Shown here one piece after another: positions 33,878 to 42,755 of a DNA stretch of 64,000 nucleotides (positions are counted from its first letter, which is position 1; each line of letters begins with the position of its first letter). Below the pieces are notes generated by a model. The model made no database searches. It had not been told where the DNA came from and worked only from the letters and a program-made list of their open reading frames with translations. The DNA lies in the NCBI GenBank assembly GCA_016869975.1, contig VGCZ01000011.1:1-64000 (forward strand). Direction: 5' to 3'. A program made the translations under genes and the position numbers. This stretch comes from Alphaproteobacteria bacterium (GTDB lineage: Bacteria > Pseudomonadota > Alphaproteobacteria > Reyranellales > Reyranellaceae).

Positions 33878-34951
33878 TCAAATCCCCTCGCCGTCGGTGC
33901 CGTGACCGTCGGTGCGCCAGCGCAGCATGCCGCCGGCGAGGTTGGCAGTATCGGTGAAGCCGGCGCCGCGCAAGATGGCGATGGCCTGCGCCGAGCGGCT
34001 GCCCGCGCGGCACACCGCGACGATCGGCTTGTCGCGAGAAAGCTCGCCCGCGCGCGCCTTGAGCTGGCCCAGCGGAATCAGCGTGGCGCCAGGAACGTGA
34101 CCCAGCGGCCCGTCGAACTCCTCCGGCTCGCGCACGTCGAGTACCTGGACCTTGCCGAGATGCTCCTCCAGCGCGTGGCCCTGGATCTCCCAGATGCCGC
34201 CGAAGGTATAGCGCAGCGGCGCCCAGTCGGGGTCGGCGAGCGCGTTGGCTTCGTTCTCCGGCCGGCCGCATTTGAGGTTGGCCGGCACCGCCACATCGAG
34301 CTGCTTGGGATGCGGCAGGTTGAGGTTGGCCATGTGGCCGGCGAAATCGCCGATCGCCACGTCGCCGCCCAGCCGCGGATTGAAGCGGCTTTCCTCGCGT
34401 ACCGAGGTGACGGTGTGCCCCTTGTAGTCGTGCGCCGGATACAGCAGGCAGCCGGCCGGCAAGGTGAGAATGCGATCGTGCACCGAGCGGTACATCGCGC
34501 GCGCGTCGCCCTGCTGGAAATCGGTGCGGCCGCTGCCGCGGATCAGCAGGCAGTCGCCGGTGAAGGCCATCGCATGATCGTCGAGGACGTAAGTCAGGCA
34601 GCCATTGGTGTGGCCCGGCGTGGCGCGCACCTCCAGGTACCGGCGGCCGAAGGCGACGCGATCGCCATGCTCAAGGCAGCGGTCCGCGCCCTCGGCGCCA
34701 CTGGCTTTCGACAGCGCGATGGCGCCGCCCAGCCGGCGGCGCAGCAGCCACGCGCCGGTGACATGGTCGGCGTGCACGTGGGTCTCCAGGATCGCCACCA
34801 GCTTCAGCTCGAGCTCACTGATCAGCGCGGCGTCGCGACGCGCCTGCTCGAAGACCGGATCGATGATCACCGCCTCGCGCGTGTCGGCGCAGCCCAGAAG
34901 GTAGGTGTAGGTCGACGAGACGGGGTCGAAGAGCTGACGAAACACAAGCAT
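33878..34951 (-). CDS. Persulfide dioxygenase-rhodanese fusion (ETHE1-like + rhodanese)
   Basis: 357 residues from ATG 34951; GTG 34960 is also possible. Residues 1-235 are a metallo-beta-lactamase-fold ETHE1-like domain: THVHADH (His58, His60, Asp62, His63), His114 in TPGHTNG, Asp133 in FTGDCL and His174 in YPAHDYKG. The single-iron site of persulfide dioxygenases uses two His and one Asp. Residues 255-350 are a rhodanese domain with active Cys in VAVCRAGSRSAQ. Such fusions oxidise glutathione persulfide to sulfite and pass sulfane sulfur to sulfite or thiols. It supports a sulfide or thiol detoxification role. Confidence 0.88.
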   Translation of the reverse strand: MLVFRQLFDPVSSTYTYLLGCADTREAVIIDPVFEQARRDAALISELELKLVAILETHVHADHVTGAWLLRRRLGGAIALSKASGAEGADRCLEHGDRVAFGRRYLEVRATPGHTNGCLTYVLDDHAMAFTGDCLLIRGSGRTDFQQGDARAMYRSVHDRILTLPAGCLLYPAHDYKGHTVTSVREESRFNPRLGGDVAIGDFAGHMANLNLPHPKQLDVAVPANLKCGRPENEANALADPDWAPLRYTFGGIWEIQGHALEEHLGKVQVLDVREPEEFDGPLGHVPGATLIPLGQLKARAGELSRDKPIVAVCRAGSRSAQAIAILRGAGFTDTANLAGGMLRWRTDGHGTDGEGI

Positions 34952-35028
34952 GGGCGCCACGTCAGCACCGCGCGCGCGGGCTGTCCAGCGTCACGCGAGG
35001 CTTGCATGCGGGCGCCTGACAGTGTGCG

Positions 35029-36111
35029 ATGCGCGCCATGACACACAAGCTCGACGCCGTTGAAGGCCTGACCTTCGCCACCAAGGATTTCGCTCTCGAG
35101 AAGGGCGGCACCTTGCCGCTCTGCGAGGTCGCCTACGAAACGCACGGCAAGCTCAACGCCGCCGGCGACAACGCCATCCTCGTGGTCCACGGCTACACCT
35201 CGAGCGGCCATGTCGCGGGCGTGCATGCCGAAGGCAAGGAGGCGCGCGGCGTGGCGCCCGGCACGGCGGGCTGGTGGGACGCGCTGATCGGGCCGGGCAA
35301 GGCGGTCGACACCGACAAGTTCTTCGTCGTCGGTGTCAATGCGCTGGGCTCGTGCCACGGCTCGACCGGGCCGGCCAGCCTCGATCCGCGCACCGGCAAG
35401 CCCTACGGTCCGACCTTCCCCGAGGTGACGATCCGCGACATCGTGCGCTCGCAGAAGCTGCTGCTCGACTCGCTGGGCGTGAAGCACCTGGTGGCGGTGT
35501 GCGGCCCTTCGATGGGCGGCTTCCAGTCCTTCCAGTGGGGCGTCAGCTACCCCGATTTCATGCACGGTGTCGTCGCCACGGTGACCGCGCCCAAGATGCG
35601 CGCGGGCACGATCGACGCCGCCGAGCAGTTGCGCCAGCGGCTCGCGAGCCATCCCAACTGGAACAATGGCTGGTACTACGAGAACGGCGGCATCGCCTCG
35701 ATCCTCGCGGACATAAGGCACGAGACCTTGGTGGGCTACGGCCAGCGCGAAATCCTCGCGGCGACGATCCCCGATCCGGCCAAGCGCGAGGAGGCGATCC
35801 GCGCCAACGCGCGCGAATGGGCGAAGACCTATGACGGTCATTCGATGGTCGTGCTGCGCCGCGCCATCGGCACTTTCGACATCACCGCCGACTACGCCAA
35901 GCTGAAGGCCAAGGTGCTCTACGTGATCGCGCCCAACGACACGCTGTTTCCCGCCAAGATGGGCGTGTCCTACGCCAAGGAGATGCGCGAGGCCGGCGTC
36001 GACCTCACCTATGTCGAGCTGGTCACCGACAAAGGCCACATGGCGAGCCACGCCGACGCCCTGCAATGGGCCCCGGCGCTGGCCGCGTTCATCGAGCGGT
36101 TGGGGAAGTAG
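35029..36111 (+). CDS. MetX-like alpha/beta-hydrolase acyltransferase
   Basis: 360 residues (357 if the second ATG at 35038 is used) with the homoserine O-acetyltransferase fold. NALGSCHGSTGP is the MetX oxyanion-region motif, the nucleophile is Ser161 in CGPSMGG, and the acid and base are in IAPNDTLFP and DKGHMASH. True MetX makes O-acetylhomoserine for methionine synthesis, but many paralogs act on other acyl donors or are hydrolases. The sulfur-rich neighbourhood fits a role in sulfur amino acid metabolism. Divergent from the persulfide dioxygenase gene. Confidence 0.8.
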   Translation: MRAMTHKLDAVEGLTFATKDFALEKGGTLPLCEVAYETHGKLNAAGDNAILVVHGYTSSGHVAGVHAEGKEARGVAPGTAGWWDALIGPGKAVDTDKFFVVGVNALGSCHGSTGPASLDPRTGKPYGPTFPEVTIRDIVRSQKLLLDSLGVKHLVAVCGPSMGGFQSFQWGVSYPDFMHGVVATVTAPKMRAGTIDAAEQLRQRLASHPNWNNGWYYENGGIASILADIRHETLVGYGQREILAATIPDPAKREEAIRANAREWAKTYDGHSMVVLRRAIGTFDITADYAKLKAKVLYVIAPNDTLFPAKMGVSYAKEMREAGVDLTYVELVTDKGHMASHADALQWAPALAAFIERLGK

Positions 36112-36250: not shown

Positions 36251-38455
36251 TCAAATCGTCAGCACGGTGAACCGCGAATCGCCATCGCGCTTGACCTGGC
36301 CAACGAGGTCGACCTCCCATTCGAGGTACTGGTTCATCGCCGCCTCGACGCCTTCCTTGCGGTCGTAGGGGCGGTACCAGACGTCGGTCGGCGGGTCGGC
36401 CATGCGGGTGTGCTCGTTCTCCAGCGGCAGGCCGGCCTCCTTCCACGCCTTCATGCCGCCGGCGAGCGTCGCCACCTTCCACGCTGCCATCGCCGCGACC
36501 TCGGCCGAGGCGAGCCGCGCCAGCACGCCGTCAGGCGAGACCAGCACGATGCGCCGGGCCTTGGGCGCCTCGGCCACCATCTTCGGCAGGGTCTCGGCGA
36601 GGTTGGCGCGGGTGGCGAACCAGGCGCCGGGGACGTGGCCGTCGCGGTACCGAAGACTGGTGTCGAGATCGATCACCAGCGCCTCGCCACGCTCGACCAG
36701 CCCATTGAGCTCCTTGGGCGACAGAGTCGGCGTCTTGATCGCACCCAGCCCGGGCACGCCGCGCTTCTCCGGTCCGGTCTCGATCTGGTTCTTGCCCGGC
36801 CGGTGGTCGAGCACGAAGACCTTCTTCCAGCCCATTTGCAGCAGCCAGTGCGCCGTCATGGTCGCGCGCACGCCGTCATTGTCGTGCAGCACGATCGTGG
36901 CGTTGCGCACGCCGACGTATTGATCGGTCGCCTGCACGAGCTGGCCGCCCGCCGCGTGGCGCAGGCCGATCAAATGGCCGGCCTTGTACTCTGCCGGATC
37001 GCGCACGTCGAAGGCGTAGAGGCAGCCGCCTTTCGCGGCCGCGTCGTCGGCCATGTCGCGCAAGGTGTTGAGGCCGATCTTCTTCACGCCGACCTTCTCG
37101 GCCACCTTGGCGGCGGCCTCGCGCGCCCACTGCGCGGCCTCCTTGCTTTGCGGCTTGAAGCTGTCGGTCTTGCCGCGCGCCACTTCGAGGCCTGCGAGAT
37201 GCCAGCCCATGGTGCCGTTCTTCAGCGCGATCACCTTGTTGGGTACGCCGGCGTTGATCAGCGACTGCGCGCCGATGATCGAGCGCGTGCGGCCGGCGCA
37301 GTTCACCACCACCAGGGTCTCGGGGTTGGGCGCCATGTCCTTGACGCGGTAGACCAGCTCGGCGCCGGGGCAGTCGATCCCGCCGGGGATCGACATGTTG
37401 TGGAACTCCTCGTAGGGCCGCGAATCGAGGATCACCATGTCGCGACCCTCGTCCTGCATCTTCTTGATCTCGGCGGCGTCGACGCGCGGCGTATCGCGGT
37501 CGTGCTCGACGATCTCGCCGAAGGCCTTGCTCGGCACGTTGACGCCCGTGAAGATCTCGTAGCCCGCCTCGCGCCACGCCTTCAGCCCGCCATCCATCAC
37601 GGCGACGTTGGTGTAGCCCAGCAGCGTGAGCTTGGAGGCGGCGCGGCCGGCGCGGCCGAGCTGGCCTTCCTCGCCGGTGTCCATGACGACGATGCGCGCG
37701 GCGAAGTTGGGCACGAGTGGCAGGATACGCAGTTCCAGCTTCGACAAGGGCACGCAGATCGCGAACAGCGGATGGCCGTCGGACGAGAACTGGCCCTCCT
37801 CGCGCACGTCGACGAAGCAGACCTCCTCCTCCGTGCCCATCAGCGCCTTGACGTCGGCGACACTGATCAGCGGCGTCAGGATCTTCGGCGGTGCGGCGAA
37901 CTCGGCCGCCTGCTTGGTCTCCAGCTCGACCATCACGCGGCGTGGCAGGTGCTCGAGGCTCAGCCCGTACAGATGCAGATGCAGCGCCGGCCCGCCGCCC
38001 ACCGGCACCTGGATGGTGTGGAAATCGTCGGGCAGGAACTGGATCGAGTTGCCCTTCACCACCGTCAGCTCCGAGCCCTTGGCCAGCTCGACGCTGTTGG
38101 GATCGTTGACGCCCTCGCTCGCCACGCGGTCGTAGCGCACGTTGTGCTCCTGGCCGTGCACGCCAGCGATCACCGCCCAGGTCGTGTGATTGTGCGGCTG
38201 CACCAGCTTGCCCTCGAGGCCCGCCGAGGCGTAGAGCGCGAAGCGGTGGTCGGGATCCTCGGCCAGGCGGTAGATGCCGCCTTCCTTGCGCACCGGGAAC
38301 TGCTCAAGCGGGAACAGCTCGGTGCGCGTGGCCAGCCCGACCAGGCTCTCGCCGATCTTCGCCAAGCCCTCGCGCGTCACACCCTCGGCCTCGATGGCGC
38401 GCACCGCCTCGACCGTCTCGCGCACCGCCTGCGCCCGCTCGTTCCACACCGACAT
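36251..38455 (-). CDS. Thiol-dioxygenase-like cupin fused to four rhodanese domains
   Basis: A 734-residue protein. Residues 1-170 are a cysteine-dioxygenase-like cupin with the three-His iron site His88 and His90 (QPHNHTTW) and His146 (DDFHTIQV), and the late HLHLYG that matches the Ser-His-Tyr region of thiol dioxygenases. Four rhodanese domains follow at about 197-303, 325-430, 472-580 and 600-700. Only the second has the catalytic Cys (Cys386 in VVNCAGRTRS); the others have Asp or Ser at that loop (VMDTGEE, LHDNDGV, VSPDGVL). This suggests oxidation of a thiol coupled to sulfane sulfur transfer. GGAGG precedes ATG 38455. Confidence 0.85.
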   Translation of the reverse strand: MSVWNERAQAVRETVEAVRAIEAEGVTREGLAKIGESLVGLATRTELFPLEQFPVRKEGGIYRLAEDPDHRFALYASAGLEGKLVQPHNHTTWAVIAGVHGQEHNVRYDRVASEGVNDPNSVELAKGSELTVVKGNSIQFLPDDFHTIQVPVGGGPALHLHLYGLSLEHLPRRVMVELETKQAAEFAAPPKILTPLISVADVKALMGTEEEVCFVDVREEGQFSSDGHPLFAICVPLSKLELRILPLVPNFAARIVVMDTGEEGQLGRAGRAASKLTLLGYTNVAVMDGGLKAWREAGYEIFTGVNVPSKAFGEIVEHDRDTPRVDAAEIKKMQDEGRDMVILDSRPYEEFHNMSIPGGIDCPGAELVYRVKDMAPNPETLVVVNCAGRTRSIIGAQSLINAGVPNKVIALKNGTMGWHLAGLEVARGKTDSFKPQSKEAAQWAREAAAKVAEKVGVKKIGLNTLRDMADDAAAKGGCLYAFDVRDPAEYKAGHLIGLRHAAGGQLVQATDQYVGVRNATIVLHDNDGVRATMTAHWLLQMGWKKVFVLDHRPGKNQIETGPEKRGVPGLGAIKTPTLSPKELNGLVERGEALVIDLDTSLRYRDGHVPGAWFATRANLAETLPKMVAEAPKARRIVLVSPDGVLARLASAEVAAMAAWKVATLAGGMKAWKEAGLPLENEHTRMADPPTDVWYRPYDRKEGVEAAMNQYLEWEVDLVGQVKRDGDSRFTVLTI

Positions 38456-38658
38456 GGCATCCTCCAGATACGCTCTCGGCGCGCATCATAGTCGATCTTA
38501 ACCTTCGACCGGAGGGGGAAGGTAAACCAGACATCATATGCGATCGACCCGCACCCCGAGCGAGGGCGCGACGCTGAGCGCGCTTGCCGGCTTCGCCGGG
38601 TTCCAGTAACCAAGGGGCAGCTCCTCCGGGGGGAGAGGCCTTGACGGGAGTTCCATCG

Positions 38659-40590: not shown

Positions 40591-40745
40591 ACGACACCGC
40601 TGAAGCTCAGCGAATACCGCATCGACCCCGACCGCCCGCAGGGCGAGGCGCTGCGCAGCTGATCGCCCAGATGGCCGAGCAGGTGCCGATCGAGATCGGC
40701 TGCTACTGCGACGTGCTGACCTGCCATCGCTTGACGCATCGCGGC
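40591..40745 (+). pseudogene. Frameshifted fragment resembling the C-terminus of a DUF488-type protein
   Basis: The 311 bases between slt and the CoA-transferase gene contain two abutting frames that read well together: TPLKLSEYRIDPDRPQGEAL ending in TGA at 40660-40662, then in the next frame LIAQMAEQVPIEIGCYCDVL and TCHR. The GCYC...CHR pattern resembles the C-terminal motif of DUF488 proteins. One missing base near 40657 would join them. No start or N-terminal half is visible, so it looks like a degraded gene end. Family assignment is tentative. Confidence 0.35.
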
Positions 40746-40856
40746 GCGCGCTCGTCGTCGGCACCGCAAGTGCGCAGAGCAGCATCGCCGCCATCGGGCT
40801 TGATCGCGCACCATGCGCGCAGTGACAGTGGCGTCATGCAAGGAGACTCCCGCCCG

Positions 40857-42050
40857 ATGACCAAACCCTTCGCCGGAATCCGCATCCTCGATTTCACCCG
40901 CGTGCTCGCCGGACCATACGGGACCTATCAGTTCGCGCTGATGGGCGCCGACGTGGTCAAGATCGAGTCCAAGGAAGGCGACGACATGCGCTATGGCGGC
41001 GTCGCCAAGGAATGGTCGGCGCGCGGCATGGCGCCGGGCTGGATGGCGGTCAACGCCAACAAGCGCTCGATCACGCTCGACCTGAAGAAGCCCGAGGCGA
41101 TCGCGGTCGTGAAGAAGCTGGTCGAGAGCGCCGACATCGTCTGGGAGAATTTCCGCCCCGGCGTGATGGACGGTCTGGGCATCGGCTACCAGGCGCTGTC
41201 GGCGATCAATCCCAGGCTGATCTATTGCGCAGTGTCGGGCTTCGGCCAGACCGGGCCGGAGAGCAAGGCGGCGGCGTTCGACGGCATGGTGCAGGCGATG
41301 TCCGGCCTGATGTCGATCACCGGCCATCCTGAGATGGGACCAACGCGCGTCGGCTATCCGGCCTGCGATGTCACCGCCGGCGCCACGGCGGCCTTCGGCG
41401 TCGCGACCGCGCTGTTCCAGCGCACGCATACCGGCCGGGGCCAGCTCGTCGATATCGCCATGCTCGACGCGACCATGGCCTTCATCGGCACCTCGATCGC
41501 CGAATACACCTTCACCGGCAAGCGCCCGCCGCAGGCGGCCAACCAGTCGGTGACGCGCAAGCCGACCGGCGACATGTTCCCGACCAAGGACGGCTTCATC
41601 GTGCTCGCGGTGATGACCGACAAGCAGTTCGGCAACCTGATGCGCGAGATCGGCCGGCCCGATGTCGCCCTCGATCCTGGCTTCAGCGACTGGGACAAGC
41701 GCATCGCGCGCGCCAAGGAGCTCAAGGCGATCATCACCGAGGCGTTGGCCGCCGATACGTCGACCAATTGGGCGCGGCGTCTGCGCAAGGCCGACGCGCC
41801 CTGCGGCAAGGTCTACGCCATCGACGAGATCATGGCGCACCCGCAGCTCGAGCACCGCACCATCGTGCAGAAGATCGACACGCAGTACGGACCGGTGACC
41901 CTGGCCGGCAGCGGCGTGAAGCTGGAGCACGGCGGCCCCTCGGTCGAGCGCGCGCCGCCGGCGCTGGGCCAGCACACCGAGGAGGTGCTGCGCGAGGCGG
42001 GCTACGACGCGGCCGCGATCGCGAAGCTGAAGGCGGCCGGCGCGGCGTAG
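40857..42050 (+). CDS. Class III CoA-transferase (CaiB/BaiF family)
   Basis: 397 residues from ATG 40857, with AAGGAG 11 bases upstream; an in-frame ATG at 40836 lies before that site. The N-terminal hallmark is RILDFTRVLAGPYGTYQFALMGADVVKIE, and the catalytic Asp is expected in the GQLVDIAMLDATMAF segment. These enzymes move CoA between carboxylic acids through an aspartyl-CoA intermediate. It is the first gene of a set with a thiol dioxygenase (91 bases on) and an enoyl-CoA hydratase, which points to activation of a thiol-derived or sulfinic acid. Substrate inferred only from context. Confidence 0.88.
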   Translation: MTKPFAGIRILDFTRVLAGPYGTYQFALMGADVVKIESKEGDDMRYGGVAKEWSARGMAPGWMAVNANKRSITLDLKKPEAIAVVKKLVESADIVWENFRPGVMDGLGIGYQALSAINPRLIYCAVSGFGQTGPESKAAAFDGMVQAMSGLMSITGHPEMGPTRVGYPACDVTAGATAAFGVATALFQRTHTGRGQLVDIAMLDATMAFIGTSIAEYTFTGKRPPQAANQSVTRKPTGDMFPTKDGFIVLAVMTDKQFGNLMREIGRPDVALDPGFSDWDKRIARAKELKAIITEALAADTSTNWARRLRKADAPCGKVYAIDEIMAHPQLEHRTIVQKIDTQYGPVTLAGSGVKLEHGGPSVERAPPALGQHTEEVLREAGYDAAAIAKLKAAGAA

Positions 42051-42140: not shown

Positions 42141-42755
42141 ATGCCCACGCTCAACCACGCCCGCCTGCGCCGCTTCCTCGCGGACATGACGTCGCTTGTC
42201 GGCGGCGCGCAGCAGGACAAGGACGAGAAAGCGATCGTCGACGTCGGCGGCAAACTGCTGGGCGATCTCGTCGCGCATGACGACTGGCTGCCGGAGTCGT
42301 GCGCCGACGCCAAGGCCGGCACCTACCAGCAGCATCTGCTGTACTGCGATCCGCAGGAGCGTTTCTCGGTCGTGAGCTTCGTCTGGGCGCCGGGCGCCTT
42401 CACGCCGGTGCACGATCATCTCACCTGGGGCCTGATCGGCATGCTGCGCGGCGCCGAGAGCGAGGAGCGCTACGAGCGCTGCGCCGAGAATGGCTGCCTC
42501 GAGCCGGTGGCGCAGACGATCCTGCGCCCGGGCGAGGTTGGCGTCGTCTCGCCGACCATCGGCGACATCCACAGGGTCAGCAACGCGCTCGTCGACCGCG
42601 CCTCGATCAGCATCCACGTCTATGGCGGCAATATCGGCGCCATCCGCCGCCACAAGTTCGACCTCGCGCACAACAAGGCCGAGGACTTCATCTCTGGCTA
42701 CAGCGCCACGCCGCTGCCCAACATCTGGGATCGCTCGAAGGATACGGGGCAATGA
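42141..42755 (+). CDS. Gln-type thiol dioxygenase (3-mercaptopropionate dioxygenase-like)
   Basis: 204 residues from ATG 42141; in-frame ATG 42069 overlaps a repeat. Cysteine-dioxygenase superfamily cupin with the iron ligands His91 and His93 (PVHDHLTWG) and His144 (GDIHRVS). The Ser157-His159-Tyr161 triad lies in SISIHVYGG. Where true cysteine dioxygenases have a substrate-binding Arg (Arg60 in mammals), this protein has Gln64 in TYQQHLLYCD, the mark of Gln-type enzymes that prefer 3-mercaptopropionate. It would add O2 to the thiol to give a sulfinic acid. Lies between a CoA-transferase and an enoyl-CoA hydratase. Confidence 0.83.
   Translation: MPTLNHARLRRFLADMTSLVGGAQQDKDEKAIVDVGGKLLGDLVAHDDWLPESCADAKAGTYQQHLLYCDPQERFSVVSFVWAPGAFTPVHDHLTWGLIGMLRGAESEERYERCAENGCLEPVAQTILRPGEVGVVSPTIGDIHRVSNALVDRASISIHVYGGNIGAIRRHKFDLAHNKAEDFISGYSATPLPNIWDRSKDTGQ

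Follow-up and report, generated by a model that had tools for sequence, protein, structure and literature searches.

Fusion of a thiol dioxygenase-like cupin domain to a four-rhodanese protein in Reyranellaceae

One open reading frame in the window analysed here (the whole 64,000-nucleotide stretch of a Reyranellaceae contig, VGCZ01000011.1) encodes a thiol dioxygenase domain joined to four rhodanese domains. The frame lies on the minus strand, a detail not given in the first-pass annotation; it starts with an ATG at 38455, contains 734 codons and its stop codon ends at 36251 (Table 1). The N-terminal domain belongs to the clade of mercaptosuccinate dioxygenase (Msdo, PDB 8vni), and the remainder is a four-rhodanese protein of the type of PDB 1yt8 from P. 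aeruginosa, probably PA2603 ('thiosulfate sulfurtransferase'). The iron ligands and Cys386 are conserved, and in many relatives the two parts are adjacent separate genes. With moderate confidence, we read the protein as a natural fusion of an Msdo-clade dioxygenase and a PA2603/1yt8-type rhodanese, which would oxidise a thiol to sulfite and use Cys386 to transfer sulfane sulfur to or from sulfite.

Table 1. Features of the fusion gene; positions are those of the window.
Feature	Position	Strand	Basis
Whole fusion gene (734 aa): thiol dioxygenase domain of the Msdo clade, then four rhodanese domains	36251..38455	-	ORF, Pfam, PDB, AlphaFold2
GGAGG Shine-Dalgarno-like sequence, few bases 5' of the ATG	38461..38465	-	sequence read
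Cupin/thiol dioxygenase domain, residues 1-194, including a ~15-20-residue linker	37874..38455	-	8vni Z 27.4 (model), E 7.4e-29
Predicted iron ligand His88, codon	38192..38194	-	87/87 fused and 22/22 split cupins
Predicted iron ligand His90, codon	38186..38188	-	87/87 fused and 22/22 split cupins
Predicted iron ligand His146, codon	38018..38020	-	87/87 fused and 22/22 split cupins
Rhodanese domain 1, residues 194-303, Asp259 replaces Cys	37547..37876	-	fold matches; Asp in 169/171
Rhodanese domain 2, ~residues 320-428, catalytic loop CAGRTRS with Cys386	37172..37498	-	Cys in 171/171
Codon of Cys386, sole rhodanese-loop cysteine of the fusion	37298..37300	-	
Rhodanese domain 3, ~residues 450-552, Asp525 replaces Cys	36800..37108	-	Asp 166/171, Cys 5
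Rhodanese domain 4, ~residues 572-682, Ser640 replaces Cys	36410..36742	-	Pfam best stretch 579-674; loop comparison
Conserved C-terminal helix and tail, residues 683-734	36254..36409	-	full alignment with 1yt8; model helix 703-724

Compared with the copy in the nearest genome (96% identity), the fusion gene has 15, 14 and 117 substitutions at the first, second and third codon positions, and its changes are synonymous in 113 codons and non-synonymous in 26; this distribution over the codon positions shows that the frame is under protein-level selection. The plus-strand frame over the same interval was rejected as an antisense frame, as is typical for G+C-rich DNA. With its 96 contigs the source is apparently a draft genome, and an artefact of assembly or ORF calling might be suspected. 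However, the full-length fusion is present in 59 of the 76 genomes of the window's order, single-contig genomes included, and a Variovorax plasmid record contains one fusion as a single CDS, annotated 'sulfurtransferase'. The fusions in other genomes refute the artefact, which we give practically no credence. The AlphaFold2 model, computed from 27 sequences (the window protein and relatives), shows the whole fusion as one confident five-domain structure, with a mean pLDDT of 91 and a pTM of 0.90. Structural matches to the model were computed with VIA-align; the two best are 1yt8 and 8vni, followed by 3-mercaptopropionate dioxygenase (3MDO) and CDO.

In sequence comparison with the PDB, residues 5–179 match Msdo (8vni) with an E-value of 7.4e-29, and the cupin of the model superimposes on 8vni with a Z-score of 27.4 and 1.6 Å over 188 residues, at 33% identity. 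The Z-scores are ∼21 against 3MDO and ∼17.6 against CDO. On the basis of these matches, the N-terminal domain is a thiol dioxygenase on the Msdo side of the superfamily. The first-pass annotation had made its assignment to the thiol dioxygenase superfamily depend on profile results; the assignment holds through Msdo, both by sequence and by fold, but not through Pfam. The Pfam search of the fusion gave no match for the first 190 residues, and the isolated cupin domain gave none against CDO_I (PF05995) even at an E-value of 10; the CDO_I model misses the cupin clade of the fusion. Because this subgroup escapes CDO_I, such genes are likely to be annotated as sulfurtransferases only, of which the Variovorax record is one example. 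By Pfam and fold, Lactamase_B is absent from the N-terminal domain, which is a cupin.

The fusion shares with Msdo the fold, the motif PHNHTTWA, the three His ligands, the H-x-H-x-Y form of the triad and the equivalent of Arg173. His88, His90 and His146, the three predicted iron ligands, lie where the first-pass annotation placed them; like Trp93, Tyr163 and Arg173, they are invariant in 109 cupins (87 fused and 22 split). Where CDO and 3MDO have a Ser-His-Tyr triad, the fusion has His159-His161-Tyr163; the Ser is replaced by His159, as in 8vni. Different from the fusion, Msdo is a separate protein of 196 residues, and it has Arg61 and Leu63 where the fusion has Ile61 and Arg63. 3MDO (6xb9 and 4tlf) belongs to the same superfamily and has the three His ligands, but it shares only 16–17% identity with the fusion's cupin, retains the Ser-His-Tyr triad and has Gln at the position of Ile61.

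In an ungapped alignment, Ile61 thus stands at the position of the 3MDO Gln and the Msdo Arg, and Arg63 follows two residues further; the CDO equivalent of this position is Arg60. Arg is found at 63 in 80 of the 87 fused and 14 of the 22 split cupins. Two cupins have Arg at both 61 and 63, and those with Arg61 as in Msdo are a minority. Residues i and i+2 of a β-strand face the same side; possibly, the basic substrate residue was shifted from 61 to 63 in this subgroup. At the site used to define CDO, 3MDO and Msdo, the alignment shows neither Arg nor Gln in the Ile61/Arg63 cupins.

The other part of the protein contains four Rhodanese stretches (Pfam, E-value 2.8e-49). Residues 200–732 match 1yt8 with an E-value of 1.5e-128 in the PDB sequence comparison, and the rhodanese half of the model superimposes on 1yt8 with a Z-score of 58.4 and 1.8 Å over 525 residues, at 46% identity. 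Like the fusion, 1yt8 has four domains in the same order, Asp, Cys and Asp at loops 1–3 and the C-terminal tail; different from the fusion, it has no cupin and carries Cys in place of Ser640 in domain 4. The loop comparison agrees with the first-pass annotation that only the second of the four rhodanese domains has the Cys (Cys386) and that the others have Asp or Ser; these residues are Asp259, Asp525 and Ser640. All 171 rhodanese proteins compared have Cys386; the conservation of Asp259 and Asp525 is given in Table 1, and residue 640 is Ser or Ala in most of them and Cys in a few. By the Cys criterion, domain 2 alone is predicted to be able to carry sulfur.

The three domains described earlier as lacking the catalytic cysteine are strongly conserved and, judged from their loops, not decaying. 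Since the conservation extends over the 171 relatives, the non-Cys loops were already present in the common four-domain protein and were not lost in the window protein; domain 4, which has Cys in 1yt8, is the exception. Two-domain sulfurtransferases consist of one inactive and one active domain, and inactive rhodanese domains are generally regarded as interaction modules (PMC10135228). The D1D2 and D3D4 halves align co-linearly (hhalign E-value 1.4e-23), with Asp opposite Asp and Cys opposite Ser, which would fit an origin of the four-domain array by duplication of the classical inactive-active pair. This origin is not proven, because D1 is equally close to D4 and D3. In genomes of family code f172 (G592, G715 and others; loci L206 and L207), there is a shortened variant with frames of 429–442 aa; it matches residues ∼189–562 only and has three rhodanese domains, without domain 4.

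Beyond the 59 genomes with the full-length fusion, eight of the 76 genomes of the order contain the rhodanese part alone, at 65–69% identity. Of the eight cupin-less Reyranella loci (L092, L096, L097, L100, L103, L106, L163 and L164; rhodanese protein at 64–68% identity), six have a 3MDO-like gene within a few kb on the other strand. Separate, adjacent cupin and rhodanese genes are found in ∼20 genomes of a sample of 385 alphaproteobacterial genomes; the gap between them is 6–118 bases in nearly all loci examined, with the exception of one damaged locus and plasmid cases. A phylum-wide sample added two more genomes with the fusion from outside the class. The fusion is conserved in most Reyranellaceae and in several other proteobacterial groups.

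Fused, split and solo forms all fall within one rhodanese family tree. In the cupin tree, 56 fused rows cluster together with a support of 100/99, and a single further fused row stands apart, beside 8vni; therefore, at least two fusion events took place. This count was taken from the careful cupin tree; the rhodanese tree, a quick LG tree with long branches, agrees. Msdo itself groups with the second, independent fusion and not with the window's clade. The second fusion (L158 and L159, in genomes G333 and G108) has an Msdo-type cupin with Arg61, a longer linker to the four-rhodanese part and Cys in the loop of domain 3. In the rhodanese tree the cupin-less Reyranella proteins nest inside the fused clade, which suggests two losses of the cupin.

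A thiol dioxygenase-rhodanese fusion was absent from the literature searched, which was open-licence only, so that this absence is weak; the same open-licence literature contained nothing relevant on 1YT8 or on four-rhodanese proteins. Within that scope, the first-pass remark on the lack of a characterised enzyme with this order of domains remains valid, and the fusion is new to the literature searched, although both constituent families and their gene neighbourhood were already known. The first-pass annotation overlooked, however, that structures are known for a relative of each half (8vni and 1yt8) and that the halves form an operon pair elsewhere. As its parts are adjacent genes in other genomes, and published msdo and 3mdo genes likewise stand beside rhodanese genes, the protein represents the natural fusion of two genes known as a pair.

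Within the window, the fusion gene has a divergent gene on one side and a convergent gene on the other; it belongs to no operon and no sulfur operon. The convergent gene is a MetX-like acyltransferase/esterase (35029–36111, plus strand), which is also located beside the fusion in Vineibacter and other Reyranellaceae relatives; for none of the MetX models listed does its product reach the curated cut-off. An orthologue of PRF (persulfide dioxygenase-rhodanese fusion) is encoded at 33878–34960 on the minus strand (5ve3, E-value 2.4e-163). A specific pairing of the fusion with the MetX-like and PRF genes was considered and rejected: neither stays beside the fusion across the family, and the MetX-like gene is convergent. 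A true 3MDO orthologue lies at 42141–42752 on the plus strand (6xb9, E-value 2.2e-60), just behind a class III CoA-transferase gene (40683–42047); the two could belong to a 3-mercaptopropionate/3-sulfinopropionyl-CoA pathway. Three different sulfur dioxygenases, PRF, the fusion and 3MDO, are thus encoded within ∼9 kb. The gene order 3MDO, (CoA-transferase), lytic transglycosylase and fusion is largely kept in Reyranellaceae.

In other genomes, the pair or fusion is associated with organosulfur genes. A cystathionine β-lyase gene accompanies it in Stella (directly downstream; TIGR01324, 505.9 bits), in several split loci and in Caballeronia; the other neighbours include SsuD, a sulfite exporter of the TauE/SafE type and ABC transporters of the polar amino-acid, taurine-like or sulfonate kind. 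Known msdo genes likewise cluster with a rhodanese gene, a cystathionine β-lyase gene and an amino-acid ABC transporter (PMC5373536). In Pseudomonas, 3mdo and tst form a transcription unit (PMC12947264); the tst gene adjoining this thiol dioxygenase gene is homologous to 1yt8, whose dioxygenase partner, different from that of the fusion, is of the 3MDO clade. The dioxygenase adjacent to the four-rhodanese gene in Azospirillum and a Comamonadaceae bacterium is likewise 3MDO-like, not of the Msdo clade, with 56% and 52% identity to the window's 3MDO, respectively. In Pseudomonas and Azospirillum, 3MDO pairs with the same four-rhodanese protein as the cupin of the fusion. As two enzymes encoded as neighbours elsewhere are fused here, both are suggested to act in one pathway.

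The rhodanese could supply sulfur for cofactors or tRNA (molybdopterin, Fe-S assembly) while the cupin removes excess thiol, the link being regulatory. According to PMC5373536, Brandt and colleagues suggested a molybdenum-cofactor role for the msdo-adjacent rhodanese; our coarse search, however, found no cofactor or tRNA-thiolation gene recurrent among the conserved neighbours, and we consider this explanation highly improbable. Alternatively, the fusion may serve co-expression only: cupin and rhodanese would work in one organosulfur pathway at fixed stoichiometry, with no shared intermediate. Split pairs are frequent and are retained as such, some Reyranella lost the cupin and kept the rhodanese, and the four-rhodanese protein also pairs with the 3MDO-type clade. 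However, members of two dioxygenase clades are found as partners and fusion took place at least twice, which points to a functional link tighter than a chance neighbourhood; co-expression alone is a possible explanation, though not a likely one.

In the reading that we prefer, the cupin would act on a small organic thiol (a mercapto-carboxylate or a thiol amino-acid derivative is probable); the addition of O2 would give a sulfinate, which would release sulfite at once or after hydrolysis. Cys386 of domain 2 would hold sulfane sulfur as a persulfide and transfer it to sulfite to form thiosulfate, or catalyse the reverse; thiosulfate formation would remove toxic sulfite and save sulfur. Domains 1, 3 and 4 would shape the active-site cleft and the assembly and take no part in sulfur-transfer catalysis; they may bind substrate or partners. 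The fusion would hold both activities close together at 1:1. Sulfinosuccinate, the product of Msdo, is converted to succinate and sulfite by spontaneous hydrolysis (PMC5373536). In the sulfide-oxidation pathway, rhodanese (TST) works with persulfide dioxygenase and transfers sulfur from glutathione persulfide to the dioxygenase-made sulfite to form thiosulfate (PMC9369223). Since the Msdo product yields sulfite and rhodanese makes thiosulfate from glutathione persulfide and sulfite, the two chemistries connect. The earlier proposal that one polypeptide could oxidise and relay is plausible.

Two observations count against a tight coupling of cupin and rhodanese. In P. protegens, the one published deletion of the rhodanese gene (tst, adjoining 3mdo) had no significant effect on 3-mercaptopropionate (PMC12947264), which shows that thiol oxidation in this species does not require the rhodanese; and there are lineages with the rhodanese but without the cupin. 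As some Reyranella keep it after the loss of the cupin, the rhodanese protein has a role of its own. The location of the window's fusion gene outside any sulfur operon also weighs against the preferred reading.

PRF (5ve3) and CstB share with the fusion the concept of a non-haem iron sulfur dioxygenase joined to rhodanese. By their example, the rhodanese could first form or deliver a persulfide (or thiol), which the fusion's cupin would then oxidise. PRF is an established dioxygenase-rhodanese fusion with an orthologue encoded nearby in the window, and the fusion's cupin lacks the usual Arg or Gln substrate residue. However, the dioxygenase of PRF is of metallo-β-lactamase fold, has a persulfide substrate and is joined to one rhodanese; it is an unrelated fusion, whereas the dioxygenase domain here is an Msdo-clade cupin whose nearest characterised relative, Msdo, oxidises a free thiol. 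In addition, the window already encodes a true PRF. We therefore regard persulfide oxidation by the cupin as unlikely.

A bolder reading is that the clade of Ile61/Arg63 cupins is a thiol or persulfide dioxygenase with a substrate new to the superfamily, that in the fusion its sulfite would pass directly to the Cys386 persulfide and that the Asp-loop domains would provide a passage or docking surface. We consider it unlikely; if true, the protein would be a single-chain thiol-to-thiosulfate enzyme operating across a tandem rhodanese array.

Until now, the link between rhodanese and thiol dioxygenases was known from gene neighbourhood only. The fusion is evidence of the 'Rosetta stone' type that small-molecule thiol dioxygenases and the little-studied four-rhodanese protein work together, and it points to a thiol dioxygenase subgroup without the residue that separates CDO, 3MDO and Msdo. 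It is of moderate interest because it makes both the four-rhodanese protein and this subgroup testable; the function of the four-rhodanese protein becomes accessible to test in one soluble polypeptide.
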